Source: Sideroxydans lithotrophicus ES-1 (lineage in GTDB: Bacteria; Pseudomonadota; Gammaproteobacteria; Burkholderiales; Gallionellaceae). From it: 64,000 nt of DNA. The position numbers were made by a program, and so were the translations under genes. Below are positions 24,510 through 46,537 of this stretch, piece after piece; position 1 is the stretch's first letter, and every line of letters begins with the position of its first letter. The stretch covers positions 1,603,063 to 1,667,062 of the forward strand of contig NC_013959.1 in assembly GCF_000025705.1 (NCBI RefSeq), in the 5' to 3' direction. The notes under the pieces were generated by a model, which was not told the DNA's origin, searched no databases, and was given only the letters and a program-made list of their open reading frames with translations.

Positions 24510-24570
24510 TTGCGGCGTAGGCTAACGTGAGCTTGCGAACGTTAAGCGCGAAGAGCGCGGCCGAAGCCAC
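24510..24570 (+). repeat. Structured repeat family A, copy 1
   Basis: TTGCGGCG, AGGCTAAC, stem 1 AACGT/ACGTT, stem 2 GCGC/GCGC, and the closing hairpin GGC-CGAA-GCC then AC. It is shared with copies at 46328 and 46474, where stem 1 is AACTTGG/CCAAGTT and AACAT/ATGTT. The conserved parts are the boxes; the stems vary in a paired way. Confidence 0.72.
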
Positions 24571-24675
24571 CAGCCGCTCGCGCAGGATGCCGAAGGCAGT
24601 CCCGAGTTCCACGAGGGATGAGGTTTTCGCGGAGGCAACGCGAAAGCTGAGCAATCCGCCCTCTCCGCCAAATAC

Positions 24676-24702
24676 AAAACCGCCCACAAAGGGCGGTTTT
24701 TT
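24676..24702 (-). terminator. Terminator after the thioredoxin gene
   Basis: Stem ACCGCCC/GGGCGGT flanked by an A run on one side and T6 on the other, so it can act in both directions. On the minus strand it follows the thioredoxin stop codon (24729) by about 25 bases. Confidence 0.8.
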
Positions 24703-24728
24703 CATTCAGCGATGCCGTCGCAAACGAT

Positions 24729-25097
24729 TCACGCACCGGACTGATGATGCGAAATCAGCTTGTCGATGAACTGGCGCAAGAAGTGATCCGGCTGCGAACT
24801 GTGGAAACGGTCGAACTCTGCACCGCGGCTGTAGGCGATGACTGTCGGGAATCCCCTGACCTTGTGTTTTCCGGCGATGCGCATGTTCTCGTCCGCATCG
24901 ACTTTCGCCAGCAGGAACTTGCCGCTGTATTCCTTCGCCAGGCGCTCCAGATGCGGGCCGAGGACTTTGCACGGTGCGCACCACTCGGCGCCGATGTCGA
25001 GCAGGATGGGAGCATCCTGCGAACGGGCAACGACCCGCTCGTCAAAATTGGCTTCTTCCACGTCGTATGAATAAGGATGGGGATCGTGCATGTGCAT
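24729..25097 (-). CDS. Thioredoxin-like protein with WCAPC active site
   Basis: 122 residues, no signal peptide. Active site AEWCAPCKVLGPHLERLAKE near residue 40 (classical thioredoxins have WCGPC), catalytic-face KVDADENMRIAGKHKVRGFP with the cis-proline in RGFPT, then the last strand and helix. The N-terminus is His-rich (MHMHDPHPYSYD), an unusual extension. It diverges from hoxF across 86 bases, which makes shared control with the soluble hydrogenase likely. A role in keeping hydrogenase cysteines reduced is only a guess from position. Confidence 0.85.
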   Translation of the reverse strand: MHMHDPHPYSYDVEEANFDERVVARSQDAPILLDIGAEWCAPCKVLGPHLERLAKEYSGKFLLAKVDADENMRIAGKHKVRGFPTVIAYSRGAEFDRFHSSQPDHFLRQFIDKLISHHQSGA

Positions 25098-25183
25098 AAC
25101 TATTCAGTTCCTGTGAGTGCTGTTTAGATTGTTTAGGGGTAAACTGTCCGGACACATTTCGGTGAAGCATCAATTTCCACCAT

Positions 25184-26995
25184 ATGCTACCAGACAACGA
25201 TATTCGTTTTGACGTTTCCGATCTGTCATGGCTGGATAAATTGGTCATGCGTCACGGGCGCGACGCGACCCGGTTGTTGCAGATACTCCGGGAGATACAA
25301 GAGTCTTTCGGCCATATTCCGCAACAGGCCGTTTCCGTACTCGCGGCAAAACTGTCCATACCCCGTTCCCGCATCGAAAGCGTGGCTTCGTTCTATTCTT
25401 TCCTGCACCTGAAACCGCACGGCGAATATCGCGTGCTGTTCTCCGACAACATCACCGACCGCATGCTGGGCAGCCAGGACCTGATGGACCAGATGTGCCA
25501 ATTGTTGTGGCTGCAACCGGGCAAGGTCTCCGAAGACGGCCTGGTCAGCATCGGCACCACATCCTGCACCGGCATGTGTGACCAGGGGCCGGCGCTGCTG
25601 GTCAACGGACGCGCCATCACACGCATGACTCACCAGCGCGTGCAGGAGATCGCACAACTGATCCGCAACCGCACCCCTGTTGCCGACTGGCCGTCCGATT
25701 TCTTCAGGGTGGAAGACAACATCCGGCGCAGCGGCCTGCTGCTCGGCAACACCATTCCCTACGGCGCAGCGTTGGCAGCTGCGATATCGTCCGGGGCGCA
25801 CATCATCGAACCGATCAAGGCATCGGGACTGCGCGGACGCGGCGGCGCCGGCTTCCCAACCGGCTTGAAATGGGAAGCCTGCCGCGATGCACCGGGCTCT
25901 GAACATTATGTGGTGTGCAATGCCGACGAAGGCGAACCGGGCACATTCAAGGACCGCGTGCTGCTCAACTCGCACGCCGACCTGGTGTTCGAAGGCATGA
26001 CGATATGCGCCCTGGCCGTCGGTGCCCGCAAAGGCTTTCTGTACCTGCGCGGCGAATACCGCTACCTGCTCGAACCTTTGCACGCGACATTGCAGCGCCG
26101 CCGCGAAAGCAACCTGCTGGGCGAGAGCATCCTGGGACGGGCCGGATTCGATTTCGACATCGACATCCATGTTGGCGCAGGCGCCTATATCTGCGGCGAG
26201 GAATCGGCGCTGATCGAATCGCTGGAAGGCAAGCGCGGCGTACCGCGCAACCGCCCGCCGTTCCCGGTGACGCACGGATACCTGCAACAACCGACTGCGA
26301 TCGATAATGTCGAGACCTTCTGTCAGGCCGTGCTGGCTCTGTACTTGGGCGCCGAAAGATATCGCGCCATCGGCACAGCCAAATCCACCGGCAGCAAGCT
26401 CATATCTGTCTCCGGCGATTGTCCCCGTCCCGGCATCTATGAGTATCCCTTCGGCGTCTCGGTGCGCGAAGTGCTGCAGGATTGCGGTGCGGTGAACACG
26501 ATCGCAGTGCAGGTCAGCGGTCCGTCCGGTGCGTGTGTCGGGGAAAGCGAATTCGACCGCAAGCTGGGTTTCGAGGACCTGCCGACCGCCGGAGCATTCA
26601 TGGTCTTCGACGACAGCCGCGACATGTTCGAAGTGGCCCGCAACTATGTGCATTTCTTCGCGCATGAGAGTTGCGGCTTTTGCACGCCGTGTCGTGTCGG
26701 CACTTCGATGTTGAAATCCACCATGGACAAGATCGCCAACGGCCACGGCACGCGCTACGACCTGAACGAGGTCGAGAACCTGGACCGTGTGCTGCAGACC
26801 ACGTCCCACTGCGGCCTGGGGCGTACCGCCTGCAACCCGGTGCTGCATACGCTCAAGCATTTCCGTCCCGCCTACGAGAACAGACTGAAATCGCTGATGT
26901 TCTCGCCCGCCTTCGACCTCGACGGTTCCCTGGCGCGCGCACGGCAGATGACCGGCCGCGACGATGCCGGAGCCCACCTGAAGGAGGTCGAGTGA
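25184..26995 (+). CDS. hoxF: NAD-reducing hydrogenase diaphorase subunit HoxF
   Basis: 603 residues joining a NuoE-like part (1-170) and a NuoF-like part. The FMN/NADH region has GRGGAGFPTGLKW (about 217) and CNADEGEPGTFKDR (about 245); GAGAYICGEESALIESLEG follows. The 4Fe-4S ligands are in ESCGFCTPCRVG (about 496) with a late Cys in SHCGLG. It passes electrons between NAD(H) and the hydrogenase module in the cytoplasm. In the NuoE-like part only CTGMC (about 127-131) of the usual four cysteines is present, so that 2Fe-2S cluster may be absent. First gene of hoxFUYH; hoxU begins inside its stop codon region with AAGGAGG in front. Confidence 0.96.
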   Translation: MLPDNDIRFDVSDLSWLDKLVMRHGRDATRLLQILREIQESFGHIPQQAVSVLAAKLSIPRSRIESVASFYSFLHLKPHGEYRVLFSDNITDRMLGSQDLMDQMCQLLWLQPGKVSEDGLVSIGTTSCTGMCDQGPALLVNGRAITRMTHQRVQEIAQLIRNRTPVADWPSDFFRVEDNIRRSGLLLGNTIPYGAALAAAISSGAHIIEPIKASGLRGRGGAGFPTGLKWEACRDAPGSEHYVVCNADEGEPGTFKDRVLLNSHADLVFEGMTICALAVGARKGFLYLRGEYRYLLEPLHATLQRRRESNLLGESILGRAGFDFDIDIHVGAGAYICGEESALIESLEGKRGVPRNRPPFPVTHGYLQQPTAIDNVETFCQAVLALYLGAERYRAIGTAKSTGSKLISVSGDCPRPGIYEYPFGVSVREVLQDCGAVNTIAVQVSGPSGACVGESEFDRKLGFEDLPTAGAFMVFDDSRDMFEVARNYVHFFAHESCGFCTPCRVGTSMLKSTMDKIANGHGTRYDLNEVENLDRVLQTTSHCGLGRTACNPVLHTLKHFRPAYENRLKSLMFSPAFDLDGSLARARQMTGRDDAGAHLKEVE

Positions 26996-27744
26996 GCGAC
27001 ACATTCCAGCTCGATGGCAGCACAGTGCCGTTTGAATCAGGTCAGACCGTGATGCAGGCCGCGCTGGCAGCCGGACATTACATCCCGCACCTGTGCTACC
27101 ACCCGGAGTTCAAACCGCACGGCAGTTGCAAACTGTGCACGGTCAAGGTCAACGGGCGCACGACCGCCTCATGCACCATGCCGGCCGAAGCCGATCTCAA
27201 TGTCGAAAGCAATATCGAGGAACTGAATGCCCTGCGCCGCTCCCTGGTGCAGATGCTGTTCGCCGAAGGTAACCATTTCTGTCCCTCTTGCGAAAAGAGC
27301 GGCAATTGCGTGTTGCAGGCGCTGGGTTACGATCTCGAAGTTCACGCCACCGGCTTCCGCCACCTCTATCCGGATCGCCCGCTGGACGCCTCGCATCCCG
27401 ACATCCTGCTCGACTTCAACCGCTGCATCCTGTGCGAACTGTGCGTGCGCGCCTCCGGCGAAGTGGATGGCAAGAACGTGTTCGCCCTGGCGGGGCGCGG
27501 CATCGACAAACATCTCATCGTCAATGCCGAATCGGGCTTGCTCAAGGATACCAACATCGCGCTCACCGACAAGGCGATGCAGGTCTGCCCGGTGGGCGTG
27601 ATTCTGCCCAAGCGCATCGGCTTCAGCGTGCCTATCGGCGAGCGGCGTTACGACCAGCGCCCGATCAGCGCGCAGGCGCTGGACGACGCTCCGCGCCAAC
27701 TCGACGCCAGCGGCAATTGCGATGCCTGCGAGGGAATGCCATGA
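26992..27744 (+). CDS. hoxU: NAD-reducing hydrogenase diaphorase subunit HoxU
   Basis: 250 residues from GTG at 26992, preceded by AAGGAGG and overlapping the hoxF stop by four bases; the open frame runs further upstream but only as hoxF shadow. 2Fe-2S ligands: CYHPEFKPHGSCKLC (about 36-49) plus SCTMP (about 60). A His-Cys3 4Fe-4S site is in HFCPSCEKSGNC (about 94-106). A further 4Fe-4S site is made of CILCELC (about 145-151) with a distant CPVG (about 200). It corresponds to the N-terminal part of NuoG and wires HoxF to HoxY. Confidence 0.95.
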   Translation: MSDTFQLDGSTVPFESGQTVMQAALAAGHYIPHLCYHPEFKPHGSCKLCTVKVNGRTTASCTMPAEADLNVESNIEELNALRRSLVQMLFAEGNHFCPSCEKSGNCVLQALGYDLEVHATGFRHLYPDRPLDASHPDILLDFNRCILCELCVRASGEVDGKNVFALAGRGIDKHLIVNAESGLLKDTNIALTDKAMQVCPVGVILPKRIGFSVPIGERRYDQRPISAQALDDAPRQLDASGNCDACEGMP

Positions 27745-28280
27745 GCAAGAAACTGCGCGTCGCCACCACTTCGCTAGCCGGTTGCTTCGGCTGCCACATG
27801 TCCTTGCTCGACATCGACGAGCGTCTGTTCCCGCTGCTTGAGCTGGTCGAGTTCGACCGCTCGCCGATCACCGACATCAAACATTGCGGGCCGTGCGACA
27901 TCGGCATCGTCGAAGGCGGTGTCTGCAACGCAGAGAACGTGCATGTGCTGCATGAGTTCAGAAAGAACTGCAAGATCCTCATCGCCATCGGCGCCTGCGC
28001 CATCAACGGCGGGCTGCCGGCACAGCGCAACCATCTCGATCTGGCCAGCTGTCTCACCGAGGTGTATCTCACCGAACCCGGGCTGGAACATGGGCATATC
28101 CCCAACGATCCCGAGCTGCCGCTGCCGCTGGACAAGGTGCATCCGCTGCACGAAGTCGTGAAGATCGATTACTTCATCCCCGGCTGCCCGCCCTCGGCTG
28201 ATGCCATCTGGAAATTCCTCACCGACCTCATTGCGGGCAAGACGCCGGAACTGGGGCACGGGTTGATTAAATATGATTGA
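27741..28280 (+). CDS. hoxY: NAD-reducing [NiFe] hydrogenase small subunit HoxY
   Basis: 179 residues, ATG overlapping the hoxU stop (ATGA). Ligands of the proximal 4Fe-4S cluster are visible: GCFGCHMSLLD (C14-C17 area), GACAING and PGCPPSAD; CGPC near residue 50 is also present. It has no Tat signal and no distal clusters, as expected for the short cytoplasmic small subunits of group 3d enzymes. Confidence 0.96.
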   Translation: MSKKLRVATTSLAGCFGCHMSLLDIDERLFPLLELVEFDRSPITDIKHCGPCDIGIVEGGVCNAENVHVLHEFRKNCKILIAIGACAINGGLPAQRNHLDLASCLTEVYLTEPGLEHGHIPNDPELPLPLDKVHPLHEVVKIDYFIPGCPPSADAIWKFLTDLIAGKTPELGHGLIKYD

Positions 28281-28290
28281 AAGACATTTA

Positions 28291-28359
28291 GCCACAGAGA
28301 TCACAGAGCACACAGAGAAAAGCAGCGAAGTTCTCTGTGGTCTCTGTGTACTCTGTGGC
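28291..28359. repeat. CACAGAG palindrome between hoxY and hoxH
   Basis: Two 29-base arms, GCCACAGAG + ATCACAGAGCA + CACAGAGAA (28291-28319) and its near-perfect inverse (28331-28359), around an 11-base loop. Each arm is itself built of CACAGAG units about 9 bases apart. It resembles the CACAGAG-type intergenic palindromes common in proteobacteria. It splits an otherwise tightly packed operon, so it may form a hairpin that sets hoxH mRNA level. Confidence 0.85.
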
Positions 28360-28373
28360 AAAGGATTTTGAAT

Positions 28374-29861
28374 ATGGGTAATGATCTGGAAACCGCCGCC
28401 CACCCCGAGAACCTGCGCCGCGTCGCCATCGACCCGGTGTCGCGCGTCGAAGGCCACGGCAAGGTGACCTTGCTGCTCGACGAGAACGACCGTGTGCACC
28501 AGGTGCGGCTGCATATCGTCGAGTTTCGCGGCTTCGAGAAATTCATCCAGGGCCGTCCCTACTGGGAAGCGCCGGTCATGGTGCAGCGGCTGTGCGGTAT
28601 CTGCCCGGTGAGCCACCATCTTGCGGCATCCAAGGCGATGGACATGATCGTCGGTGCGACGCTCACGCCCACGGCGGAAAAGGTGCGGCGGCTGATGCAT
28701 TACGGCCAGATCCTGCAATCGCATGCGCTGCATTTCTTCCACCTGTGTTCGCCGGACCTGTTGTTCGGTTTCGATTCCGATGTCGCTAAGCGCAACATCG
28801 TCGGCATCGCCGCCGCCTATCCGGACATCGCAAAACAGGGGGTGCTGCTGCGCAAGTTCGGGCAGGAAGTGATCCGCATCACCGCAGGAAAACGCATTCA
28901 CGGCACCGGTTCCGTTCCCGGCGGGGTCAACAAGAACGTCAGCTTCGAAGAACGCGATTACCTGCTCAAGGACATCGAACAGATCGTGGCCTGGAGCAAG
29001 GATGCCGTTGGCATCGCGCGACAACTGTTCGAGCAGAATCTCGACCTGTACAACGATTTCGGTCGCTTCAAGGCGCACACGCTCAATCTGGTGCGTGCCG
29101 ACGGTGCGCTGGACCTGTACCACGGCGGATTGCGCGCGCGCGACATGGAAGGTCAAACGCTGTTCGATCATCACGACTATGGACATTACTGGGATGTGAT
29201 CTTCGAGGACGTGAAGCCGTGGTCGTACATGAAATTCCCGTTCCTACGCAGCCTCGGACCGGAGAACGGCTGGTATCGCGTCGGACCGCTGACGCGCGTG
29301 ACCCAGTGTGACTTTATTCCCACGCCGCTGGCCGAAGCGCAGCGCCAGGAATTCCTCGCCTTCAACGGCGGCTCTGCGACAGGCGCGACGCTCGGTTTCC
29401 ATTGGGCACGCATGATCGAGATGCTGCACTCTGCCGAAGTGATCCGCGACCTGCTGCACGATCCTGACCTGCAAGGCAGCGAGCTGGTCAGCCAGGGCGC
29501 ACGGCAGGAACGCGGCGTGGGCGTGATCGAAGCGCCGCGCGGCACGCTGATCCATCACTACAAGGTGGACGATAACGACCAGATCGTGCGCTGCAACCTG
29601 ATCGTTTCCACCACCCACAACAACCAGGCGATGAACGAGGCCATCCGCTCCGTGGCAAGGCAGTACATCGACGGAAAGAAGCTCACCGAAGGGCTGCTCA
29701 ACCATATCGAAGTCGCCATCCGCGCCTTCGACCCCTGCCTCTCCTGTGCCACGCATGCCTTGGGCAAGATGCCGCTGGAAGTGGAACTGCTGGATGCAGA
29801 AGGTGCCCGCGTAGATGTGCTGACGCGTTCATCCGACGGTTCTTTCAGCTGCGCTGCCTGA
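28374..29861 (+). CDS. hoxH: NAD-reducing [NiFe] hydrogenase large subunit HoxH
   Basis: 495 residues from ATG at 28374 (AAAGGA in front; a TTG two codons earlier is less likely). The Ni-Fe site cysteines are C74/C77 in RLCGICPVSHH and C455/C458 in DPCLSCATH. The 34-residue tail after H461 (ALGKMPLEVE...) should be removed by the maturation protease once nickel is in. DPVSRVEGHGK near the N-terminus is the family signature. It forms the H2-activating centre with HoxY. The tail is longer than the ~15 residues seen in the membrane enzyme of this window. Confidence 0.96.
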   Translation: MGNDLETAAHPENLRRVAIDPVSRVEGHGKVTLLLDENDRVHQVRLHIVEFRGFEKFIQGRPYWEAPVMVQRLCGICPVSHHLAASKAMDMIVGATLTPTAEKVRRLMHYGQILQSHALHFFHLCSPDLLFGFDSDVAKRNIVGIAAAYPDIAKQGVLLRKFGQEVIRITAGKRIHGTGSVPGGVNKNVSFEERDYLLKDIEQIVAWSKDAVGIARQLFEQNLDLYNDFGRFKAHTLNLVRADGALDLYHGGLRARDMEGQTLFDHHDYGHYWDVIFEDVKPWSYMKFPFLRSLGPENGWYRVGPLTRVTQCDFIPTPLAEAQRQEFLAFNGGSATGATLGFHWARMIEMLHSAEVIRDLLHDPDLQGSELVSQGARQERGVGVIEAPRGTLIHHYKVDDNDQIVRCNLIVSTTHNNQAMNEAIRSVARQYIDGKKLTEGLLNHIEVAIRAFDPCLSCATHALGKMPLEVELLDAEGARVDVLTRSSDGSFSCAA

Positions 29862-30322
29862 TGCCTGCCCCGCTGCTCGTCTTCGCCATCGGCAACGAAT
29901 CGCGCGGCGACGACGCACTGGCCCCGCTGCTGCTGCGACAACTCGCAGCGCAAGATTTTTCCCAAGCCGAGTTCATCGAAGATTTCCAGTTGCAGGTCGA
30001 GCACGTCACCGACCTCGCCGGGCGCGATGCCATCCTGTTCGTGGATGCAGACATGTCCTGTGCAGCCCCATGCCTGCTGCAACCCATCGCTGCTGCGCAT
30101 GACCACAGCTACACCAGCCACGCCATGACACCCCATTCCTTGCTGCATGCCTTCCACCAGTTCTATGGCAAAACAGCTCCGCCCAGCTATCTGCTACGCA
30201 TCCGGGGATATGGATTTGAATTGGGAGAGGGATTGAGCCCGGAGGCGAGAGCGAATTTGCAGCAGGCTTATGCGAAGGCACAAGAGTGGATCGCTGAAGT
30301 CGGGACGGTTCAAATTCGATAA
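29861..30322 (+). CDS. hoxW: [NiFe] hydrogenase maturation protease (HoxW-like)
   Basis: 153 residues. FAIGNESRGDDALAPLLL carries the acidic nickel-sensing residue (D17/D18), LFVDADM has D62, and the SHAMTPHSLL region gives a histidine (H87 or H92) in the place of HybD His93. The gene starts on the last base of the hoxH stop, so it is co-translated with its presumed substrate. It should clip the HoxH C-terminal tail. Last gene of the hox unit; no terminator is evident behind it. Confidence 0.88.
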   Translation: MPAPLLVFAIGNESRGDDALAPLLLRQLAAQDFSQAEFIEDFQLQVEHVTDLAGRDAILFVDADMSCAAPCLLQPIAAAHDHSYTSHAMTPHSLLHAFHQFYGKTAPPSYLLRIRGYGFELGEGLSPEARANLQQAYAKAQEWIAEVGTVQIR

Positions 30323-30487
30323 TTAACCGGCAGCATGGTGCCCACCAAAGCGGTCGTCGAACGTCAAAAGATTGATAGCCTTCTACCGACTGTTCCTAAC
30401 CCAAAGCGGTTATTCGCCTCTTCTCGATTTTTGACATTCAAAACAAATCGGGCCTAGTTAGCTGCCGAGCTAGCCTTCAATAATTTC

Positions 30488-31330
30488 TTAGTCTTTGGTT
30501 GGCGTAGCGGTCAGTTCGAATATTCGGTTTATGTAAGTTTCCTTCATACAACCGATGTTTTGGCATTCATTGCGCTTCTTCATCCATTGTCTTTGCATTT
30601 CTCGAAGAGAATTACTTCTCCTGTCCTGCTTCAACATATTCCTGTAGATAGCATCTAACAATCTGTCGAGTGACTTCATCTCATTTTCGCTGCATATTAG
30701 TTTTTCAACTTGGCTCTCGGCCTTACTGCAATTAAAGCTCGCGTAGCTTCTCTCCGGAATATTTTCAATTTTTTGTGCCGGATCGCATTTCTCTGCTTCA
30801 GTTAATTGGTCCAAACAGGTGTATCGCGTTTTTACTTGCCCATCGCTAGGGACTTCAACTTGTTCAACAATGGTCTGTTCCTTCCCTGTTGAATAGTATG
30901 GGAAAAACCTCACATCATTCACCAGTACACCTCCTCTCCAAATTACGCTAAGTTCGGGAGAAACGTGGGTGGTGTTATATGCATAACTCTGAATAATTAT
31001 TTTGTATACATTGTTATTAATGCGGCATTCCCTTACTGCCATTCTGCCCGCATATATCACTCCAGATGGATTGGATGGGCTTACATATGTATCAAACGCC
31101 ATTGAGTAAATATCCAGCGTGTTTGGCATCTGACTCTTTTCTTTCCCTGCTTCATTCCAATCCGAATTATTTCTGATGATTAAGGCATTGGAGTCCTGGT
31201 CGCAATCGACATTTATGAGTGTGTAAAATATATCGGCAACTGCCACATTTGATCCAAGAATGAAAATAATTGCTAATACATTCCTCATTAAACGGGGCAG
31301 CACCGAATTAATCTTTAGATTGTTTCTCAT
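30488..31330 (-). CDS. Exported protein with C-terminal LprI-type domain
   Basis: 280 residues. A signal peptide with core NVLAIIFILGSNVA ends near VAVA. About 130 residues with the look of surface-adhesin-E-type domains follow (YSMAFDTYVSPSNPSGVIYA, ECRINNNVYKII). The C-terminal ~90 residues match the LprI (DUF1311) pattern: FNCSKAESQVEKLICSENE, LDRLLDAIYRNML, QRQWMKKRNEC and CMKETYINRI, with paired cysteines. LprI proteins inhibit lysozyme in some bacteria, so cell-wall protection is possible. The gene is AT-richer than the hydrogenase genes on both sides, which suggests acquisition. Confidence 0.7.
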   Translation of the reverse strand: MRNNLKINSVLPRLMRNVLAIIFILGSNVAVADIFYTLINVDCDQDSNALIIRNNSDWNEAGKEKSQMPNTLDIYSMAFDTYVSPSNPSGVIYAGRMAVRECRINNNVYKIIIQSYAYNTTHVSPELSVIWRGGVLVNDVRFFPYYSTGKEQTIVEQVEVPSDGQVKTRYTCLDQLTEAEKCDPAQKIENIPERSYASFNCSKAESQVEKLICSENEMKSLDRLLDAIYRNMLKQDRRSNSLREMQRQWMKKRNECQNIGCMKETYINRIFELTATPTKD

Positions 31331-31581
31331 AGGAGACTGCTATCCGAGTAGGTGATGTCCGAAAACTATCCCGCCCTTGCAGCGGAGTCAACCAGCAAGA
31401 ATATCTATATCCGGCCTATAGTCGTTCGTTAACTGTCATGCCTGCAAGCTCAGAGTCTTTAGTCATGTCTAACCCAAATTAGAGTACAACCTCGAACGGC
31501 TGCTTGTGGCCGATTTTTGCCCTTTGCTAAATACTATTCCAGTGTCCGTTGTTTCACCGTTAGCGGATGTCAAAACATCGG

Positions 31582-31812
31582 CTACCTGCGGGACTGCTGC
31601 AGACGTGCGAGCTTTTCCGCCCTTCGGATGTTTCTTGTCAGTGCTTTTTGTACCAACGCATAAAATCCGACCAAGTCATGCTCTGGATGATCATCCAGCA
31701 CGCCACAGTCTTGATAGAATTCCGCGATCCATAGTGAATCGAGTTCATCTTTACCTGTTTCTTGCCAATATTCCTCTGCGGCAATTTCCACATAGTCACT
31801 TAGTTTACGCAT
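31582..31812 (-). CDS. Small hypothetical protein, 76 aa
   Basis: 76 residues, acidic in the first half (DYVEIAAEEYWQETGKDEL) and basic at the end (RNIRRAEKLARLQQSRR). No domain, signal peptide or membrane segment is recognised. It stands alone between the LprI-type gene and the killer/antidote pair on the same strand. It could be a small accessory gene of this patch. Confidence is limited by its length. The flanks 31331-31581 and 31813-31932 show nothing else. Confidence 0.5.
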   Translation of the reverse strand: MRKLSDYVEIAAEEYWQETGKDELDSLWIAEFYQDCGVLDDHPEHDLVGFYALVQKALTRNIRRAEKLARLQQSRR

Positions 31813-31932
31813 CGAGCCCCCAGTGAAGTTTTCTGGAAGAATTAAAACGATCGTGACCTTCTGCGTCTGGCCGCAAAATGACTCGCATACGCCGGTTGGC
31901 GAAAGTCCGTTCCCAGTTTGGATGCGGTCGAG

Positions 31933-32223: not shown

Positions 32224-32231
32224 ATTGCCTC

Positions 32232-32522: not shown

Positions 32523-32687
32523 AGCAAAGTGTAGCCAGTAGGCTACGACATGTCAATCATTGGACGATCTCGTTGAATGTCTCAATTGGGCAACCGATTC
32601 CTGTCTGTTTCCTATTTCAGCCGTAAGAGACTGCTATTGGGAACAAGCAGTCTACCCCCAACAACTTACCAGAATGATAGATGAGAC

Positions 32688-32711: not shown

Positions 32712-32719
32712 ACAAGAAG

Positions 32720-37991: not shown

Positions 37992-38056
37992 GTCGACTCC
38001 CTGTGTTCGATGAACCATGGAATGCGCGTGGATTCTGCGCGCACATTCCTGCCTGG

Positions 38057-38860: not shown

Positions 38861-38912
38861 AGCGGAATCCTACTAGCAAAACGTGACAAAGACATGACCC
38901 CGACGGGTACGA

Positions 38913-39698
38913 CTAAAGTCGCTGCCGCGAGGCCTCGAACAGGCAAACCGCAGTAGCCGCCGCGGCATTGAGCGATTCGATCTTGCCCTGCATGGGAATG
39001 ATGAAATGCTGCTGTGCCGCAGTCAACAATTCGGGCGACAGCCCTGCTCCTTCGTTGCCGATGGCGAACGCCAGTTTTCCGCGCAGGTTGCAGTCATACA
39101 ACGATTTCCTTGCATGCAGCGATGCTGCCAGTATCTTGCCGGTGAAACCGGTCGCGACCTTGAGCAGGTCGGCCGACTCCAGAATGCTCAACGCGAAATG
39201 CCCGCCCATCCCGGCACGCAACACCTTGGGCGACCATGCATCGGCACAGCCTGGCGACATGAACACCGCATCGCAACCTGCCGCTGCAGCCGAACGCAGG
39301 ATGGAACCGAGGTTGCCGGGATCCTGAATATCTTCCAGCAGCAGTGCGAACTGGCTGTGCGCTACTTCGACCTGGGCGGCGGGAATATCGATCAGCGCCA
39401 GCAAACCGTTCGGTGTCTTGAGTTCGGAGAGTTGCGCGAACAATGCGTCCTCGAATTGGGTCTGCGGCACATCGACGCAGGCATCAAGCAAGGCGACGAT
39501 CTCGGCATCCTGCTGCGCCTGCTCGTTGAGCAGCAGGTGTTTCGGTTTGCCGCCGTTGTCCAGAAAGGCGCGCAGCAGGTGCGAACCATCGAGCAGCGTC
39601 TGCCCTGCTTCGCGCCGCTCGCGGGCAGAAGATGAAATCCGGTGCAGCGACTTGTAGAACGGATTGTCGCGCGAGGTGATGCGCTTGATCGCAGTCAT
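38913..39698 (-). CDS. TrmH/SpoU-family RNA 2'-O-methyltransferase
   Basis: 261 residues from ATG at 39698 (MTAIKRITSRDNPFYKSLHR). An RNA-binding SpoU-sub-binding-type N-terminus (HLLRAFLDNGGKPKHLLLN) is followed by the SPOUT knot: EDIQDPGNLGSILRSAAAAG, FAIGNEGAGLSPELL and IPMQGKIESLNAAAATAVCL, the three classic motifs. It methylates a ribose in rRNA or tRNA; RlmB is the closest well-known relative but the exact site cannot be read. Monocistronic or last in its own transcript, with 52 bases to the HypC-fusion gene. Confidence 0.92.
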   Translation of the reverse strand: MTAIKRITSRDNPFYKSLHRISSSARERREAGQTLLDGSHLLRAFLDNGGKPKHLLLNEQAQQDAEIVALLDACVDVPQTQFEDALFAQLSELKTPNGLLALIDIPAAQVEVAHSQFALLLEDIQDPGNLGSILRSAAAAGCDAVFMSPGCADAWSPKVLRAGMGGHFALSILESADLLKVATGFTGKILAASLHARKSLYDCNLRGKLAFAIGNEGAGLSPELLTAAQQHFIIPMQGKIESLNAAAATAVCLFEASRQRL

Positions 39699-39727
39699 TA
39701 GTATGAAATTCGCGAAGCGTTTCGTTT

Positions 39728-39777
39728 GCCTCCTCTCCCGCAAGCGGGATAACCAGCGACTTGCCCGCTTGCGGGCT
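39728..39777. repeat. Palindromic CTCTCCCGCAAGCGGG-type repeat
   Basis: CTCTCCCGCAAGCGGGAT followed by a second inverted CCCGCTTGCGGG unit in the 228-base gap between the methyltransferase and scpB. Related to the palindrome at 43262 and 61241. Confidence 0.6.
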
Positions 39778-39811
39778 TAGTCGAATGGCTAGTAGTTCCA
39801 CCAGAGGATTG

Positions 39812-39868
39812 CACCCGCAAGGGGTAGGCCGTGGTTGTAAAGCCGATAAATCGGCAACAACCACGCAC
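39812..39868 (+). repeat. Structured repeat family B, copy 2
   Basis: CACCCGCAAG, GGTAGGCC, outer stem GTGGTTGT/ACAACCAC (8 perfect pairs), inner stem GCCGAT/ATCGGC. Same order as at 21617 and 43345 with other stem bases. The most regular of the three copies. Confidence 0.75.
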
Positions 39869-39926
39869 AGGAGAGGGAGCGGACATGGTGTGTTTCATAA
39901 TCAGCACAGGCTATTCACCACATCCG

Positions 39927-40580
<654 letters not shown>

Positions 40581-41369
40581 AGATATTCCCCAAGCTTTCG
40601 GTTTGTGTGATCTCGACCAGGTTTTCCTTGGCGAGTTCGAGAATGGCGATGAAGGTGACAACCAGCAACGGGATGCTGGCTTCGGCTTCGAACAGGCTCT
40701 CGAAGGCGATGAAGTCGGTATTGCGCAGCTGGCGCAGCACCTTGGTCATCTGTTCGCGCACCGACAGTTCCTCGCGGCGCACCCGGTGATGCGCGTTGAC
40801 CTTGGCGCGTGTAAGCAATGCCAGCCAGGCATGGCGCAGGTCTTCCACCGAAACGCTGGGCAGGCGTTCGATCACCGTGCGTTCGATCAACACCTGCACC
40901 AGTTCGAAGTCGCGCCCCGCTTGCGGCACTTCGTTGAGCTGCTGCGCGGCCAGTTTCATCTGTTCGTACTCGAGCAAGCGGCGCATCAGTTCGGCGCGCG
41001 GGTCTTCGACCGCCTCTTCCTCGTTCACCTTGGGCGGGCGCGGCAGCAGCATGCGCGATTTGATCTCGATCAGCACCGCCGCCATCAGCAGGTACTCGGC
41101 TGCCAGCTCCAGACGATGCTGCTGCATCGCCTCGATATAGGTCATGTATTGCTGGGTGAGCGCAGCCATCGGAATGTCGAGCACATCGAGGTTGTGCTTG
41201 CGGATCAGGTACAGCAACAGATCGAGCGGACCCTGGAAGGACTCCAGCACCACCTCGAGCGCGTCCGGCGGGATGTACAGATCCTGCGGCATCTCCAGCA
41301 TCGGTTCGCCGTGGACATGTGCCACGGGACTTGCCGGTTGCATCTCGACTTGTGTTTCCGCTTCGGTCA

Positions 41370-42572
41370 TCAGTTGTAGCCCAGCCCCATCGCTTCACGC
41401 ACATCGCGCATGGTCTCGCTGGCCAGCTTGCGTGCCTTTTCGCAACCGTCGGCGATGATGTTACGCACCAGGCTGGGATCATCCAGATAGAGCTGCGCGC
41501 GTTCGCGCATCGGTTTCTGCTCTTCCAGCACGGCAGTAATGACAGGCTGTTTGCATTCGATGCAGCCGATGCCGGCACTCCTGCAGCCCTGTTGCACCCA
41601 TTGTTTGATCGCATCGCTGGAATAGACCTGATGCAATTGCCACACCGGGCATTTGTCCGGATCGCCGGCATCGGTACGGCGGATGCGCGCGGGGTCGGTT
41701 GGCATGGTCTTGATCTTTTTCCCTACCTCGGCCTCGTCTTCGCGCAGGCTGATGGTGTTGCCGTAGGACTTGGACATCTTGTTGCCGTCCAGCCCCGGCA
41801 TGCGCGAAGCCACAGTCAGCATGGCTTGCGGCTCGGACAATATCATCTTGCCGCCGCCCTCAAGGTAGCCGAACAGACGCTCACGGTCACCCAGGCTCAG
41901 GCTCTGCTGTTCGTCGAGCAATGCCTTGGCCGATTCCAGCGCCGCATCATCGCCCTGCTCCTGAAAGCGGGTACGCAACTCGACATACAGCTTGGCTTTC
42001 TTGCCGCCGAGTTTTTTGATCGCAGCCTCGGCCTTTTCCTCGAAGCCCGGTTCACGTCCGTAGATATGGTTGAAACGGCGCGCAATCTCGCGCGTGAATT
42101 CGATATGCGGCACCTGGTCCTCGCCGACCGGCACTTGCGTGGCACGGTAGATCAGGATGTCCGCGCTTTGCAGCAAGGGGTAACCGAGAAAGCCGTAGGT
42201 GGAAAGATCCTTCTCGGAAAGCTTCTCCTGCTGGTCCTTGTAGGTCGGCACGCGTTCCAGCCAGCCCAGCGGCGTGATCATGGAAAGCAGCAGATGCAAT
42301 TCGGCATGCTCAGGCACGCGCGACTGGATGAAAAGCGTTGCCTGTGCAGGATCGACACCTGCCGCCAGCCAGTCGATGACCATGTCCCACACGTTCTGTT
42401 CGATGATCTGCGGCGTGTCGTAATGGGTGGTCAGAGCATGCCAGTCGGCCACAAAGAACAGGCACTCGTACTGGTGCTGCATCTGCACCCAGTTCTTCAG
42501 CACACCATGGTAATGCCCCAGGTGCAGACTGCCTGTGGGGCGCATTCCGGATAACACGCGATCAGCAAACAT
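41370..42572 (-). CDS. trpS: Tryptophanyl-tRNA synthetase
   Basis: 400 residues, about 65 longer than the E. coli enzyme. HIGH-type motif is in GSLHLGHYHGVLKNW and the KMSKS loop in GLDGNKMSKSYGN. The extra length is a charged insertion (about 190-260, including LGGKKAKLYVELRTRF and LGDRERLFGYLEGGGKMIL) before the KMSKS loop, a form I associate with betaproteobacteria. Late cysteines are present in KCPVWQLH and GCIECKQP. Charges tRNA-Trp. First gene of trpS-scpA-scpB. Confidence 0.96.
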   Translation of the reverse strand: MFADRVLSGMRPTGSLHLGHYHGVLKNWVQMQHQYECLFFVADWHALTTHYDTPQIIEQNVWDMVIDWLAAGVDPAQATLFIQSRVPEHAELHLLLSMITPLGWLERVPTYKDQQEKLSEKDLSTYGFLGYPLLQSADILIYRATQVPVGEDQVPHIEFTREIARRFNHIYGREPGFEEKAEAAIKKLGGKKAKLYVELRTRFQEQGDDAALESAKALLDEQQSLSLGDRERLFGYLEGGGKMILSEPQAMLTVASRMPGLDGNKMSKSYGNTISLREDEAEVGKKIKTMPTDPARIRRTDAGDPDKCPVWQLHQVYSSDAIKQWVQQGCRSAGIGCIECKQPVITAVLEEQKPMRERAQLYLDDPSLVRNIIADGCEKARKLASETMRDVREAMGLGYN

Positions 42573-42586
42573 AGCTCAACTTCACA

Positions 42587-43243
42587 TTAAAAAATCGTTT
42601 CGACAAACTGGATGAACGAGGTTACCAGCGGCGACAATATCCAGCTCAATATCGGTTGGCCCCCGATCGGCACCACGGCCAGCAGGATCAGTATGACCAT
42701 GCCGTACGGTTCGACCTTTGCCAGCTGGAAGGCCTGGCGGTGCGGCAGCAGGCTGATGGCGATGCGTCCGCCGTCCAGGGGCGGCAACGGCAACAGGTTC
42801 AACACCAGCAAAACGGCGTTGATTGTAACTCCGATCTGCGCCATGCCTATCAGCGGCTCGGCAAAATAGTTCTCAGGGAACATCAGCGCCACCTTGATCA
42901 TCCCGCCCCAGAACAGCGCCATCACCAGATTGGCAAGCGGGCCGGCCAGCGCGACCCACAGCATGTCCTGCTTGGGTCGGCGCAACGCGGAAAAATTGAC
43001 CGGAACCGGCTTCGCCCAGCCAAACAGGATACCGCCCACGAACAGCGTCAGCAGAGGCAGCAGGATCGTGCCCACGGGATCGATATGGTGCAAGGGATTC
43101 AGCGATATCCGCCCCTGCTGATACGCCGTCAGATCGCCGAAATGACGCGCCGCATAACCATGTGCGGCCTCATGCAAGGTGATGGCAAACAGCACAGGTA
43201 TGGCTGCAAGCGCGATGGTCTGTATCAATGCATCAAAGTTCAT
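42587..43243 (-). CDS. Site-2 protease family membrane metalloprotease (M50)
   Basis: 218 residues with about six hydrophobic segments. The zinc site is TLHEAAHGYAARHFGD (H24-E25-xx-H28) and the third ligand region is NLLPLPPLDGGRI. No PDZ domain, unlike RseP at 54794, so it belongs to the small Rip/S2P branch. Substrate unknown. It lies 14 bases upstream of trpS on the same strand and probably heads that transcript. Confidence 0.92.
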   Translation of the reverse strand: MNFDALIQTIALAAIPVLFAITLHEAAHGYAARHFGDLTAYQQGRISLNPLHHIDPVGTILLPLLTLFVGGILFGWAKPVPVNFSALRRPKQDMLWVALAGPLANLVMALFWGGMIKVALMFPENYFAEPLIGMAQIGVTINAVLLVLNLLPLPPLDGGRIAISLLPHRQAFQLAKVEPYGMVILILLAVVPIGGQPILSWILSPLVTSFIQFVETIF

Positions 43244-43261
43244 TTGTTTTCCTCGTTCGTT

Positions 43262-43303
43262 CCCTCTCCCGCAAGCGGGAGAGGGTTAGGGTTAGGGTGA
43301 GGG
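43262..43303. repeat. Palindromic repeat CCCTCTCCCG-CAAG-CGGGAGAGGG with GGTTAGGGTGAGGG tail
   Basis: Perfect 10-bp stem (43262-43285) followed by a doubled GGTTAGGG and GTGAGGG. The same design, with a shorter centre, is at 61241-61273. This is a widespread REP-like intergenic element; here it lies between the M50 protease and YciO-like genes. Confidence 0.8.
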
Positions 43304-43344
43304 ACGATATCGCGGGCCTCGCGAACCCTCATCATCTGCCCTTC

Positions 43345-43400
43345 CACCCGCAAGCAGTACGCCGGTGGGTACCCCGCTGCTACGCAGCGCCCCATCCGCA
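43345..43400 (+). repeat. Structured repeat family B, copy 3
   Basis: CACCCGCAAG, AGTACGCC, outer stem GGTGGG/CCCATCC (imperfect), inner stem GCTGC-TAC-GCAGC. Most diverged copy; followed by a further CAGTCCCGACTG inverted repeat. Confidence 0.6.
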
Positions 43401-43430
43401 GTCCCGACTGCGGGAAAAGGGAGTGATTCA

Positions 43431-44060
43431 TCATTCCTCGATTCCTAAATGTGCGACCTCCCCGATACCGCGCCGTACCAGCACTGGTGTTGCGTCGGTC
43501 AGGTCGATGACCGTGGTCGGGCCGATACCTACCGTGCCGCCTTCGATGACGAGTTCGACCAGGCGCTCGAGTTGTTCCCGTATCACGTCCACATCGGTCA
43601 GCGGTTGTTCTTCGTCCGGCAGGATCAGTGTGGAACTCAGCAACGGCTCGCCCAACTCCTCCAGCAAGGCCAGCGCGATGGGATGATCCGGGATGCGCAA
43701 ACCGACGGTACTGCGCTTGGGATGCTGCAAGCGTCGCGGCACTTCCCTGGTCGCTTCCAGGATGAACGTGTAGCTGCCCGGCGTGTTGTTCTTCAGCAGG
43801 CGGAACTGAGCGTTGTCCACCCTGGCATAGTGAGACAGCTCGGACAGATCGCGACACATCAAGGTCAGAAAATGCTTGTCGTCGAGCCCGCGTATCTGGC
43901 GGATCCGGGTCACCGCATCTTTGTCGTCCAGATGGCAACCGAGCGCATAACCGGAATCGGTGGGATAGACGATCACGGCGCCGTTCCGCAACATCTCCGC
44001 TGCCTGCTTGATCAAGCGCGGCTGCGGGTTTTCAGGATGGATGGTAAAGAATTGCGCCAT
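43431..44060 (-). CDS. YciO/Sua5/YrdC family protein (threonylcarbamoyl-AMP synthase fold)
   Basis: 209 residues. AAEMLRNGAVIVYPTDSGYALG is the standard opening of the fold, followed by RGLDDKHFLTLMCRDLSELS, LKNNTPGSYTFILEA, STVGLRIPDHPIAL and GIGPTTVIDLTDATPVLVRRG. The KRSTVGLRIPDHP form and length favour the YciO branch over TsaC proper, so a role in t6A tRNA modification is possible but not certain. It starts 3 bases after the PHP gene stop and is co-transcribed with it. Confidence 0.9.
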   Translation of the reverse strand: MAQFFTIHPENPQPRLIKQAAEMLRNGAVIVYPTDSGYALGCHLDDKDAVTRIRQIRGLDDKHFLTLMCRDLSELSHYARVDNAQFRLLKNNTPGSYTFILEATREVPRRLQHPKRSTVGLRIPDHPIALALLEELGEPLLSSTLILPDEEQPLTDVDVIREQLERLVELVIEGGTVGIGPTTVIDLTDATPVLVRRGIGEVAHLGIEE

Positions 44061-44063
44061 AGT

Positions 44064-44924
44064 TCAGGCTGCCGCCTTTTCCCACTCTGTCCACACCGGT
44101 CGGCATTCCAGCGGAAAATCCGGCAAGCGCCCGAGGTCCCGGTAGCTCTCTCCGGGCCCGTGGAAATCCGAGCCGCAGGAGCACAGCAAGCCGAACTCCT
44201 TGGCGTAGCGTGCGAACTCGGCATATTGCGGCGGCGTATGGCTGCCGCTCACCACTTCGATGCCGCGTCCGCCTGCTTCGACGAATTCTCGCAGCAGTTC
44301 CTGCAAGGTCGTCTTTCCCATCGCCTTGCGTCCGGCGGTATAGCGGCCCGGATGCGCCAGCACTGCAACGCCGCCGCTGCCGCGTATCCAGCTTACCGCA
44401 TCCTGCAGATGCGCCCATTCGTGCGGCACATAGCCGGGCTTGCCCTTGACCAGATAGCGGCTGAACACGCTGCGCACATCCTTGCAATAACCCGCTTCGA
44501 CCAGATAACGCGCGAAATGGGTACGCCCGATGATGTCCGGATTGGCCGCATACCGATACGCCCCCTCCAGCACGCCACCGATACCGCTGCGCGCCAGCGA
44601 TTCCGACATCAGCTCTGCGCGATGCTTGCGACCGCTGCGGATCGCGCGCAAACCATCGACCAATGCAGGATATTGCGGGTCGATATGCAGCCCGACGATG
44701 TGTATCGTGTGGCTACGCCAGCTCACCGATATCTCCACCCCATTGATGAATTCGATACCGTGCGCAGTGGCGGCTTGTTCTGCCTCTGTCAGGCCATCCA
44801 CTTCGTCATGATCGGTCAATGCCAGCACCTTCACTTCGCGCGCGGCGGCGCGCGCCACCAGTTCGGTCGGAGTGAGCGTCCCGTCGGACACATTGGAATG
44901 GCAATGCAGATCGTAATCGAGCAT
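44064..44924 (-). CDS. PHP-domain phosphoesterase (YciV/RNase AM type)
   Basis: 286 residues. Metal ligands of the PHP fold: DYDLHCHSNVSDGTLTP (H8, H10, D15 area), LTDHDEVDGL, GVEISVSW, VLAHPGRY, and CSCGSDFHGPGE near the end. The TrpH/YciV branch includes a 5'-3' exonuclease acting on short RNA and rRNA ends and 3',5'-bisphosphate nucleotidase activity. Starts on the last base of the rnfH stop. A YciV-YciO neighbourhood is a familiar arrangement. Confidence 0.9.
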   Translation of the reverse strand: MLDYDLHCHSNVSDGTLTPTELVARAAAREVKVLALTDHDEVDGLTEAEQAATAHGIEFINGVEISVSWRSHTIHIVGLHIDPQYPALVDGLRAIRSGRKHRAELMSESLARSGIGGVLEGAYRYAANPDIIGRTHFARYLVEAGYCKDVRSVFSRYLVKGKPGYVPHEWAHLQDAVSWIRGSGGVAVLAHPGRYTAGRKAMGKTTLQELLREFVEAGGRGIEVVSGSHTPPQYAEFARYAKEFGLLCSCGSDFHGPGESYRDLGRLPDFPLECRPVWTEWEKAAA

Positions 44925-45238
44925 CAGAGGTCGCCGCCGCCTTTCTTCATCGCTTTGCCTTCTTCGGCGCGCTTGCGCCGCACCTCTTTCGGATCGGCGA
45001 TCAATGGACGATAGATCTCGATACGGTCTTTCTCGCGCAATACGGTATCGGTCTTGCTCAACTTGCCGAAGATGCCGAATTTGCCTTTTTCAAGGTCGAT
45101 CTCGGGATGCTTGTCCAGCATGCCGGAAAGCCTGACTGCCTCGGCAATGGTCGTTCCCCTGGGCACTTCCGACTTGATCAGGAACTGCTCGGCAGGCAAG
45201 GCATAGACCAATTCCACATCGATTTTTTCGTCGCTCAT
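44924..45238 (-). CDS. rnfH: RnfH-family ubiquitin-like protein
   Basis: 104 residues: KIDVELVYALPAEQFLIKSE, VPRGTTIAEAVRLSGML and LREKDRIEIYRPLIADPKEV-type ending are the UPF0125/RnfH beta-grasp pattern. Function is not settled. It overlaps ratA by four bases, the usual partner of this gene. The C-terminus is basic (RRKRAEEGKAMKKGGG). Confidence 0.92.
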   Translation of the reverse strand: MSDEKIDVELVYALPAEQFLIKSEVPRGTTIAEAVRLSGMLDKHPEIDLEKGKFGIFGKLSKTDTVLREKDRIEIYRPLIADPKEVRRKRAEEGKAMKKGGGDL

Positions 45239-45672
45239 TTTTTTACATAAACCTTGTCTGCACGTTGGATAAAGGCATCCACAAAACTGTTGGCGATATG
45301 GTGAAACACCGGGCCCACCAGCTTCTCCAGCAGCTTGCTGGAAAACTCATAATGCAGGCGGAACTCTATTTTACAGGCTTCGTCGCTCAAGGGGATGAAT
45401 CGCCAGCTTCCATCCAGGTGCCGGAACGGGCCGTCTGTCAGCTTTATATCGATCTGGTGCGGCGGAGTGCGCCGGTTCTCGGTGCTGAAATGCTGTTTGA
45501 TATGGTGATAATCGATATGGATCGTGGCATGCATGGTCGTACCCTGCATGTCGTTGATGCTCCCGCCGCCGCACCAGGGCAGGAACTGCTGATATTCCTC
45601 CACCCCATCCACCAGCTTGAACATCTGCTCCGCCGTGTGCGGAACCAGGACCGTCTTTTCTACCAGAGCCAT
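45235..45672 (-). CDS. ratA: RatA-like START/SRPBCC domain protein
   Basis: 145 residues from ATG at 45672 (MALVEKTVLVPHTAEQMFKL). Conserved VDGVEEYQQFLPWCGGG, TFHGPFRHLDGxW-like LTDGPFRHLDGSWRFIPL and FVDAFIQRADKVY. E. coli RatA was described as a factor blocking 70S formation; mitochondrial relatives (Coq10) bind quinone, so a lipid role is also possible. Diverges from smpB across 189 bases, the normal smpB-ratA arrangement. Confidence 0.93.
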   Translation of the reverse strand: MALVEKTVLVPHTAEQMFKLVDGVEEYQQFLPWCGGGSINDMQGTTMHATIHIDYHHIKQHFSTENRRTPPHQIDIKLTDGPFRHLDGSWRFIPLSDEACKIEFRLHYEFSSKLLEKLVGPVFHHIANSFVDAFIQRADKVYVKK

Positions 45673-45861
45673 TGCTTTACGAAGCCGCCAAATCAAAGAC
45701 TGGTAGAATATCGCAACACACCTCAAAACTCACCTTATTCCAGTTCAATTTCGAAGGTCAAACAAGGCGATGACGAACGAACGACGCGGGCAGTGCTGAT
45801 GCATGACTAGGAGTGAGTGAGGAAATCAACGCAGTTTCACCGAAGAAATTGGATTGGAATC

Positions 45862-46311
45862 ATGAGCATCATCCAGAACAAAAAAGCCTTTCACGAGTAC
45901 TTCATCGAAGAAAAACATGAAGCCGGACTCATGCTGGAAGGCTGGGAAGTCAAAGCCATCCGCGAAGGACGCGTGCAGCTGAAGGAAGCCTACGTCCTCG
46001 CCAAGGACGGTGCACTCTACCTGTTCGGCTCGCACATCAGCCCGCTACTGAACGCCTCCACCCATATCCACCCCGACCCCGTGCGCACCCGCAAGCTGTT
46101 GCTGCACAAGCACGAGATCGACAAGCTCATCGGCAAGGTGCAACGCGCCGGTTACACCATCATGCCACTGGACATGCACTACAAGGGCGGACGCGTGAAG
46201 CTGGAGATCGGCCTCGCAAAAGGCAAGAAGGAGCATGACAAACGCGCAACGGAACGAGAAAAGGACGCGAAGCGTGAAGCAGCCTCCGCAATGAAGAAGG
46301 AGCGCCGCTAA
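45862..46311 (+). CDS. smpB: SsrA-binding protein SmpB
   Basis: 149 residues from ATG at 45862 ([17 protein letters not shown]); the frame is open 15 codons further but the family starts here. [20 protein letters not shown] and [13 protein letters not shown] are typical, and the C-terminal basic tail [23 protein letters not shown] is the part that enters the ribosomal mRNA channel. It delivers tmRNA to stalled ribosomes; the tmRNA gene is not in the window. A second copy of the tail lies downstream at 46389. Confidence 0.96.
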
Positions 46312-46327
46312 GGCAAGCCTTGCGCGC

Positions 46328-46389
46328 TTGCGGCGCAGGCTAACTTGGCGTAGCCAAGTTAAACGAACGAAGTGAGTGGCCGAAGCCAC
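46328..46389 (+). repeat. Structured repeat family A, copy 2
   Basis: TTGCGGCG, AGGCTAAC, stem 1 AACTTGG-CGTAG-CCAAGTT (7 pairs), a weaker stem 2 (ACGAAC/GTGAGT with tandem G-A mismatches), closing hairpin GGC-CGAA-GCC. It starts 17 bases after the smpB stop. Confidence 0.75.
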
Positions 46390-46460
46390 AAAGAGCCACC
46401 GAACGCGAAAAAGATTCGAAACGTGAAGTCGCTATGGCTATGAAAAAGGAACGCCGCTAG
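46389..46460 (+). pseudogene. Relic of a second SmpB C-terminal tail
   Basis: 24 codons ending in TAG read [23 protein letters not shown] and align without gaps to the last 24 codons of smpB (46240-46311). About a dozen of the codon differences are silent and only five or so change the residue, so this tail was under protein-level selection for a long time after it diverged. It has no start codon and is out of frame with smpB, so it is not expressed as such. Confidence 0.85.
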
Positions 46461-46473
46461 TTGAGTGGCTCAC

Positions 46474-46537
46474 TTGCGGCGCAGGCTAACATGGGCACAG
46501 CAAATGTTGAGCTCGCAACGCGAGCGGCCGGAGCCAC
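46474..46537 (+). repeat. Structured repeat family A, copy 3
   Basis: TTGCGGCG, AGGCTAAC, stem 1 AACAT/ATGTT, stem 2 GCTCGC-AAC-GCGAGC (6 perfect pairs), closing GGC-CGGA-GCC. It begins 14 bases after the relic tail stop, the same relation as copy 2 to smpB. Confidence 0.75.

Follow-up and report, generated by a model that had tools for sequence, protein, structure and literature searches.

A structured repeat at gene ends in Betaproteobacteria, probably the right end of small non-autonomous mobile DNA units

The DNA considered here, hereafter the window, is a 64,000-nt stretch of the genome of Sideroxydans lithotrophicus ES-1 (NC_013959.1, positions 1,603,063 to 1,667,062 of the forward strand), and it carries three copies of a short structured repeat that is termed E below. 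E probably forms the conserved right-hand end of a small mobile DNA element that is non-autonomous and would act as a folded-DNA homing unit. At many loci the severed part of the target gene is present twice, with one copy keeping the gene intact and a remnant lying beyond E, and relatives carry the same smpB and argF sites without E. In what follows, labels beginning with G denote genomes and those beginning with L denote loci.

The ends of the unit are regular. It starts after [G/C]A at a site [A/C]AA (written [G/C]A|[A/C]AA), and its right end is E plus one A. Among 199 distinct E candidates, gathered without any requirement on their flanks, a C stands 5' of E in 193 and an A 3' of it in 197; the preceding four bases are TTTC in 100 and TTGC in 67, and the following four are AAAA in 80, ACAA in 48 and AACA in 25, the last often within repeats resembling miniature inverted-repeat transposable elements (MITEs). 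The 12 nt before the C that precedes E, here called the arm, have a reverse complement within 250 nt upstream (at most two mismatches) in 95 of 195 cases, compared with 44 of 3900 for shuffled arms, the cases not being independent since a genome or hotspot may contribute several loci. Of the 95 complements, termed T1, 80 follow GA and 13 follow CA, and most start with AAA (50) or CAA (36). In about half of the copies, the left part of the unit thus pairs with the arm beside E to give a hairpin, P0.

The protein genes in which E is found include smpB, argF, proB, metK, ftsW (at the ftsW/murG junction), serS, rpoD, nuoD and galU, of which smpB was named by family search and the others from their translated ends. 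At nuoD (L067, L070, L123, L142, L155, L172) and galU (L033) E lies antisense and it is the start of the gene that is duplicated, as with MAEIKNYTMNF before the site; in L142 the automatic choice of frame displays the intact nuoD gene in another frame. Copying at these loci is therefore not along the mRNA, which points to a mechanism at the DNA level, and mRNA-based copying of gene 3' ends was ruled out by the antisense cases. Transfer RNA genes form a second group of targets. In 14 of 17 such loci ARAGORN detects an intact tRNA, with Leu(CAA), Ser(CGA), Ser(GGA), Ser(UGA) and Phe(GAA) represented, and the break in the 5' halves falls mostly within the anticodon loop (for L037, in the D arm). 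The intact tRNA of L165 lies upstream of E, which is followed by an identical 3' half, and the E of L065 lies past the tRNA gene. The 5S rRNA genes are another kind of target: in the same genome as the window, two E matches (L044 at about 362.7 kb and L045 at about 1923.0 kb) lie some 100 nt after 5S genes, with repeats of a 5S-like 3' end beyond E.

A precise right junction, a variable left junction and a duplicated target would also fit a scheme like that of non-LTR (non-long-terminal-repeat) elements, in which a transcript with E at its end is copied by target-primed reverse transcription. The antisense cases exclude the gene's own mRNA as template there, the tRNA units have two precise ends, and no recurrent reverse transcriptase was recognised within 3 kb of E, where no family search was aimed at such enzymes. 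We give this account very little chance of being correct.

The window itself contains one unit with copy 1 and, in smpB, two units with copies 2 and 3. A sequence-only reading of this DNA had described three related repeats here, and they were recovered at 24510-24572, 46328-46391 and 46474-46539. Their components, all on the plus strand, are as follows.

24489 to 24513, plus strand: upstream hairpin P0 of copy 1 (CAACAAGCC-loop-GGCTTGTTGC), after the junction GA|CAA, from folding with DNA parameters.
24514 to 24568, plus strand: E of copy 1 (GGC GTA GGC ... GGCC GAA GCC), covariance model score 42.8 bits, E-value 4.6e-11.
24569, plus strand: the A after E of copy 1, right boundary of the unit and the base found there in 197 of 199 copies.
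45817 to 46311, plus strand: smpB, identified by family search, its last 73 nt (46239-46311) being the cargo of the outer unit.
46239 to 46388, plus strand: outer unit in smpB, consisting of the working gene end (CAAACGCGC...TAA), arm, E copy 2 and A, with its start at GA|CAA.
46332 to 46387, plus strand: E copy 2, covariance model score 52.2 bits, E-value 4.3e-14.
46389 to 46536, plus strand: inner unit, consisting of the displaced gene end (CAAAGAGCCACC...TAG), arm, E copy 3 and A.
46478 to 46535, plus strand: E copy 3, covariance model score 37.0 bits, E-value 3.3e-9.
46537 to 46549, plus strand: CAAGCATGCGACC, possibly the decayed stub of the original smpB end, judged by its likeness to ends such as CAAGCGCGC.

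The smpB end is thus duplicated around copy 2, the inner and outer versions being identical in 54 of 73 aligned columns with a one-base gap. The start of the inner unit resembles the CAAGAGAGCCAC smpB ends of G030, G018, G007 and G032 and of the E-less G008a, and copies 2 and 3 are interpreted as insertions made one after the other at a single point of smpB, of which the inner unit would be the older. Copy 1 has a small P0 hairpin of its own and makes up a unit at 24489-24569, and the copies that resemble it in L065 and L313 lie downstream of a tRNA-Ser gene or a tRNA-Ser remnant. Downstream of copy 1, positions 24651-24670 resemble the 3' end of a tRNA-Ser gene (CCCTCTCCGCCA) and are possibly the fossil of a tRNA locus; ARAGORN reports no tRNA in the window.

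A covariance model was built from nine 52-nt copies from this and related genomes, two of them from the S. lithotrophicus genome and none from the window. In the window it finds the three copies at E-values of 4e-14, 5e-11 and 3e-9 and nothing else up to an E-value of 10. The sequence-only reading had proposed a covariance search for further copies with paired stems, and these are plentiful: the S. lithotrophicus genome (3,003,656 bases in a single contig) has at least 12 matches at an E-value of 0.01 or below and at least 15 at 1 or below, with 150 of 665 candidates scored, and E is present in all 34 congeneric genomes searched at 0.01 or below, some short weak matches being perhaps spurious. 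A DNA similarity search of the same genome gave two further sites outside the window. In an order-wide sample of 150 genomes, E was detected at 1e-5 or below in 40, and 28 of the 91 genera sampled, about one third, have it. Copy numbers per genome are lower bounds, and the patterns used to collect copies fix part of the sequence of E. A pattern scan of GTDB contigs gave at least 119 stretches with E; judging by their titles, most of the 80 that were listed belong to Betaproteobacteria (Gallionella, Methylotenera, Methylophilus, Thiobacillus, Sulfuritalea, Cupriavidus, Pelomonas and others), the exceptions including Alloalcanivorax, a gammaproteobacterial assembly and a Blastocatellia assembly. 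Four E loci came from viral contigs, one of them with what reads as a bacterial rpoD end, and L074, L075 and L076 are E copies on contigs classed as viral; a single query each of plasmid and of phage records returned no E match. A description of the family was not found in a limited literature search and may be in print elsewhere.

E is mostly 47-62 nt long, and alignment and folding together predict a three-way junction, the plan being clearest in L003 and L004. An outer GGC/GCC stem leads through a 3x3 internal loop, GNA/GNA, to a second GGC/GCC stem, inside which follow stem 1 (TAAC...GTTA), a single unpaired A, stem 2 and a single unpaired G. The hairpin loops are frequently GNA with a closing C-G pair. 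In single-stranded DNA, both GNA loops with a closing C-G pair and GNA/GNA pairs have unusual stability. Short 33-nt forms that lack stem 2 occur near full copies in L050 (1429-1461), L053 and L057. Stem 1 in the window is AACGT/ACGTT, AACTT/AAGTT and AACAT/ATGTT in copies 1, 2 and 3, and stem 2 is GCGC/GCGC in copy 1 and GCTCGC/GCGAGC in copy 3, exactly as had been read from the sequence; stem 2 of copy 2 is weaker, AC-ga-AC GAA GT-ga-GT in the model alignment. All three copies match the E model, so that their grouping as one repeat family stands, although they do not form one simple class, copies 2 and 3 being set apart from copy 1. They have in addition the outer GGC/GCC and second GGC/GCC stems around a GNA/GNA loop and a second hairpin just upstream. 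With DNA folding parameters, copy 1 forms hairpin P0 and the three-way junction. Folded alone, copy 2 keeps stem 1 and the GTGGC hairpin and does not form the full junction, and the centroid structure of copy 3 keeps both inner stems and not the inner GGC/GCC stem.

The pairing has been maintained by compensatory change. In a MAFFT alignment of 23 copies, hand-picked for diversity, 98.4% of 322 pair cells hold standard pairs and 6 of 14 pairs have changed on both sides. None of 500 shuffles reaches the share of standard pairs, the number of both-side changes or the covariation score of this alignment, while 17 of 500 match or exceed its count of further pair types; the E copies share ancestry, and these shuffle counts are not probabilities. 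Fifty distinct E rows agree on the covariation, in an alignment that had been fitted to the structure. The hairpin formed in proB by the last codons and the arm past the stop behaves similarly across eight species, with 97.7% of 128 pair cells paired and both-side changes in 7 of its 16 pairs (0 of 500 shuffles); its further pair types are reached in 176 of 500 shuffles. Compensatory change in the 23 aligned copies and in the proB hairpin bears out the earlier proposal of a selected RNA or hairpin DNA and not random decay. Of these two, hairpin DNA is favoured because relatives have the same sites without E, because copies lie within tRNA and protein genes with duplicated gene parts, and because some are antisense to nuoD and galU. 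Were E instead a selected structured RNA (a 3' untranslated region element, terminator or small RNA) inherited with its genes, the covariation and its frequent position directly past stop codons would be expected. Such an RNA is nonetheless a very unlikely explanation in view of the patchy occurrence of E at the same site among relatives, its antisense placement at gene starts and its insertion in tRNA genes. Nor is there an Rfam match at threshold: the window has none at all, and four loci gave eight weak matches, none above the gathering threshold, by which a known Rfam family was rejected for E.

The origin of the duplicated gene ends was followed in smpB and argF. Thirty smpB loci came from 29 of the 34 congeneric genomes, seven with E and a recognisable displaced end, one (G014) with a truncated E and 22 without E; argF was found in 30 of 34 genomes (30 loci), six of them with E. 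Judged by end comparisons, the 13 E loci appear to comprise two clear imports, three self-like cases, two mixed, one conflicting and five uninformative, and a single origin for all duplicated ends was ruled out by the same comparisons. The clear cases are smpB of G018 and argF of G030, in both of which the sequence comparison indicates a working end from another lineage beside a native remnant. In G018 the displaced end is identical at 58-61 of 66 positions to the E-less relatives G006, G033 and G009, compared with 47-48 of 66 for the working end, while the nearest relative, G022, gives a tie (48/48). The working end matches the E-carrying G032 of its own clade at 61 of 66 positions and, from another clade, E-less G008a and E-carrying G007 at 57 and E-carrying G030 at 56, and the change of type starts at the [G/C]A|[A/C]AA boundary. 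In argF of G030 the displaced end matches the four nearest E-less relatives at 45-49 of 51 positions and the working end matches them at 37-43, the latter being closest to the E-carrying G010 and G001 of another supported clade (48/51).

Several observations weigh against a homing unit. No good complement of the arm lies within 250 nt for 100 of 195 units. In 12 of the 14 tRNA loci the intact gene is on the other, downstream side of E, with the broken 5' half upstream. The two smpB ends of G030 and of G007 differ (45/66), and their nearest E-less relatives disagree on which is native: for G030, G005 is closer to the working end (55 against 51) and G002 and G008b to the displaced end (57 against 45-46); for G007, G008a favours the working end (54 against 47) and G008b, G017 and G021 the displaced end. 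In argF of G010 the nearest E-less relative, G020, scores 36 for the displaced and 45 for the working end. The ends are nearly equal in smpB of G029 (64/66) and G019 (65/66) and in argF of G001 (50/51), which look like local duplications. The argF loci of G031 (46/51 between ends), G000 and G015 (remnant eroded) and the smpB loci of G000 (not scorable without gaps) and G032 (displaced end truncated) do not discriminate, and the EREKD-type smpB end also occurs in the E-less G005, G008a, G013, G016 and G024. The comparison of ends also has its limits: where an end came from is obscured by the age of some insertions and by interspecies recombination, the smpB gene bodies separate the clades weakly (G018 matches G006 and G030 equally, 178/198) and several tree branches are weak. 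Lastly, searches near E and around Y1 genes and a scan of hosts for Y1_Tnp found no mobilising gene.

Some of these points are what would be expected if E were an ordinary small insertion and the gene-end duplicates had arisen separately, by tandem duplication tolerated by selection followed by homologous recombination between E-carrying alleles of different species, without homing of the whole unit. Besides the near-identical duplicates and the mixed or conflicting origins, tandem arrays and the occurrence of the duplicated tRNA part on either side of E fit such separate processes. Three identical E copies stand at 75-nt spacing in a tRNA-Leu gene (L232), and smpB of G104 (L324) has three identical copies at 141-nt spacing followed by the native end without E; by eye, the arm of L324 matches its own left end only in part. 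Identical tandem copies of this kind represent recent amplification and not necessarily recent insertion. The protein-gene duplicates, however, start at [G/C]A|[A/C]AA (93 of 95 arm matches follow GA or CA), and in smpB of G018 the type changes exactly at that boundary. On balance, separate processes are the less likely explanation, with an appreciable chance of being right.

In the preferred reading, that of a folded-DNA homing unit, the enzyme would act in trans; the transposase association that the earlier reading had suggested looking for was not found in the loci and genomes examined. Within 3 kb of E at 123 loci, 582 open reading frames (ORFs) were clustered and no recurring mobile gene was recognised; the 24 clusters present in at least three loci were judged by their printed starts, without a family scan, and were read as target-gene neighbourhoods or frame shadows. 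A Y1_Tnp match is present in 11 of 15 E-carrying genomes tested and absent from G056, G125, G136 and G071, which have 28, 13, 5 and 6 E copies (G125 being a draft that is 85% complete). The window has a RAYT-like gene (REP-associated tyrosine transposase, REP being repetitive extragenic palindrome) at 20191-20922 on the minus strand, 3.6 kb from copy 1, that scores above the cut-off for Pfam Y1_Tnp and at 73.7 bits, below the cut-off of 80, for NCBIfam NF047646, with direct repeats beside it at 19982-20283. In the same region a 3778-aa ORF with repeats spaced at 27 nt (6737-18073, minus strand), whose product is likely an RTX-type protein, lies near ATP-binding cassette exporter genes (19293-24162, minus strand), one stretch of which is partly duplicated (19354-19653 and 21770-22069, 79%).

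E has a number of features in common with REP sequences, their mosaic combinations (BIMEs, bacterial interspersed mosaic elements) and RAYT, namely short hairpins dispersed at gene ends or close to them, GNAG motifs and a probable dependence on a gene in trans, but differs in its three-way junction with a GNA/GNA internal loop and in the second gene-end copies. As described in PMC2817692, a RAYT gene is flanked by two inverted REP copies, and a REP consists of a GT(A/G)G head and then a palindrome. The GNAG of E lies within the internal loop, with no GTAG head outside the palindrome, and in 30 loci fetched around Y1 genes, a subset of the Y1 matches, there was neither a confident E (best E-value 0.044) nor a RAYT gene flanked by two inverted copies. 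Movement of E as a REP-like sequence by RAYT or another Y1 transposase of the IS200/IS605 type, for which the hairpins, the GNAG motifs, the target duplication of no more than one A, the Y1_Tnp matches and the gene in the window can be cited, is improbable given these loci and the four E-carrying genomes without Y1_Tnp, where old or imported copies could nevertheless outlive the enzyme.

Other known systems resemble E in part. IS200/IS605 elements have a hairpin at the junction-side end, a short target motif and no long fixed target duplication, and E has the hairpin and the target motif in common with derivatives of such Y1 HUH elements and may share the third trait; it differs in that several E genomes show no Y1 match and in its variable left end paired with the arm. 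Its insertion motif, [G/C]A|[A/C]AA, goes with no duplication beyond one A, although the gene-end copy is readable as a long duplication. Integron attC sites recombine inside the G|TTRRRY of a hairpin, and a cassette is a coding sequence plus that hairpin. Coding sequence plus hairpin, tandem arrays and a GTTAA-type box in the hairpin recall this arrangement, but the junctions of E lie outside the hairpin at A|[A/C]AA, by which attC identity was ruled out, and the cargo consists of the end of a gene and not of a gene. Integrative elements can restore the 3' end of their target gene, and E resembles them in gene-end insertion with a supplied replacement copy; unlike them, E units are about 80-150 bp with no integrase gene, and the same E occurs at many unrelated genes and at gene starts. 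Adeno-associated virus at AAVS1 combines a T-shaped hairpin end with a local duplication that preserves the target gene, both of which E shares, but E is bacterial and no Rep gene or replicon is known for it. MITEs carry the terminal inverted repeats of a parent insertion sequence and a fixed-length target duplication, and on inspection E itself does not qualify as one. Many E copies of G056 (L227-L242) and G078 (L319-L322) lie mid-way in MITE-like repeats whose ends are inverted (TTAGCAGGCCGTTGAAAAA is an example), and E seems to spread together with these repeats there.

How such a unit might move can be sketched from its junctions. It would be recognised and inserted as folded single-stranded DNA by a trans-acting enzyme that attaches the folded strand by its 3' end to an A|[A/C]AA site that has been cut. 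The arm would serve as an address, since it is complementary to the left end of its own unit and, to a lesser degree, to the target beside E; such addressing would account for the hits in the same genes across many species and for the way in which a unit with a gene end can home to that gene. The gene end could be acquired by local duplication at insertion, or the left end could be set by arm pairing. A bolder version, which we regard as speculative and unlikely in its full form, is a self-addressing homing element without a protein of its own, in which pairing of the arm with a 12-20 nt address sets both left end and target, and gene ends between the address and E are cargo, excised as folded single-stranded DNA and placed in the same gene of another bacterium as its working end.

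Essential genes are normally closed to mobile DNA, and E sits precisely inside them, with an intact gene left by the second copy. This could be a natural route for the exchange of gene ends between species. The C-termini of SmpB, ArgF, ProB and FtsW, as well as tRNA loci, can be mosaics in Betaproteobacteria, which matters for phylogeny and annotation.

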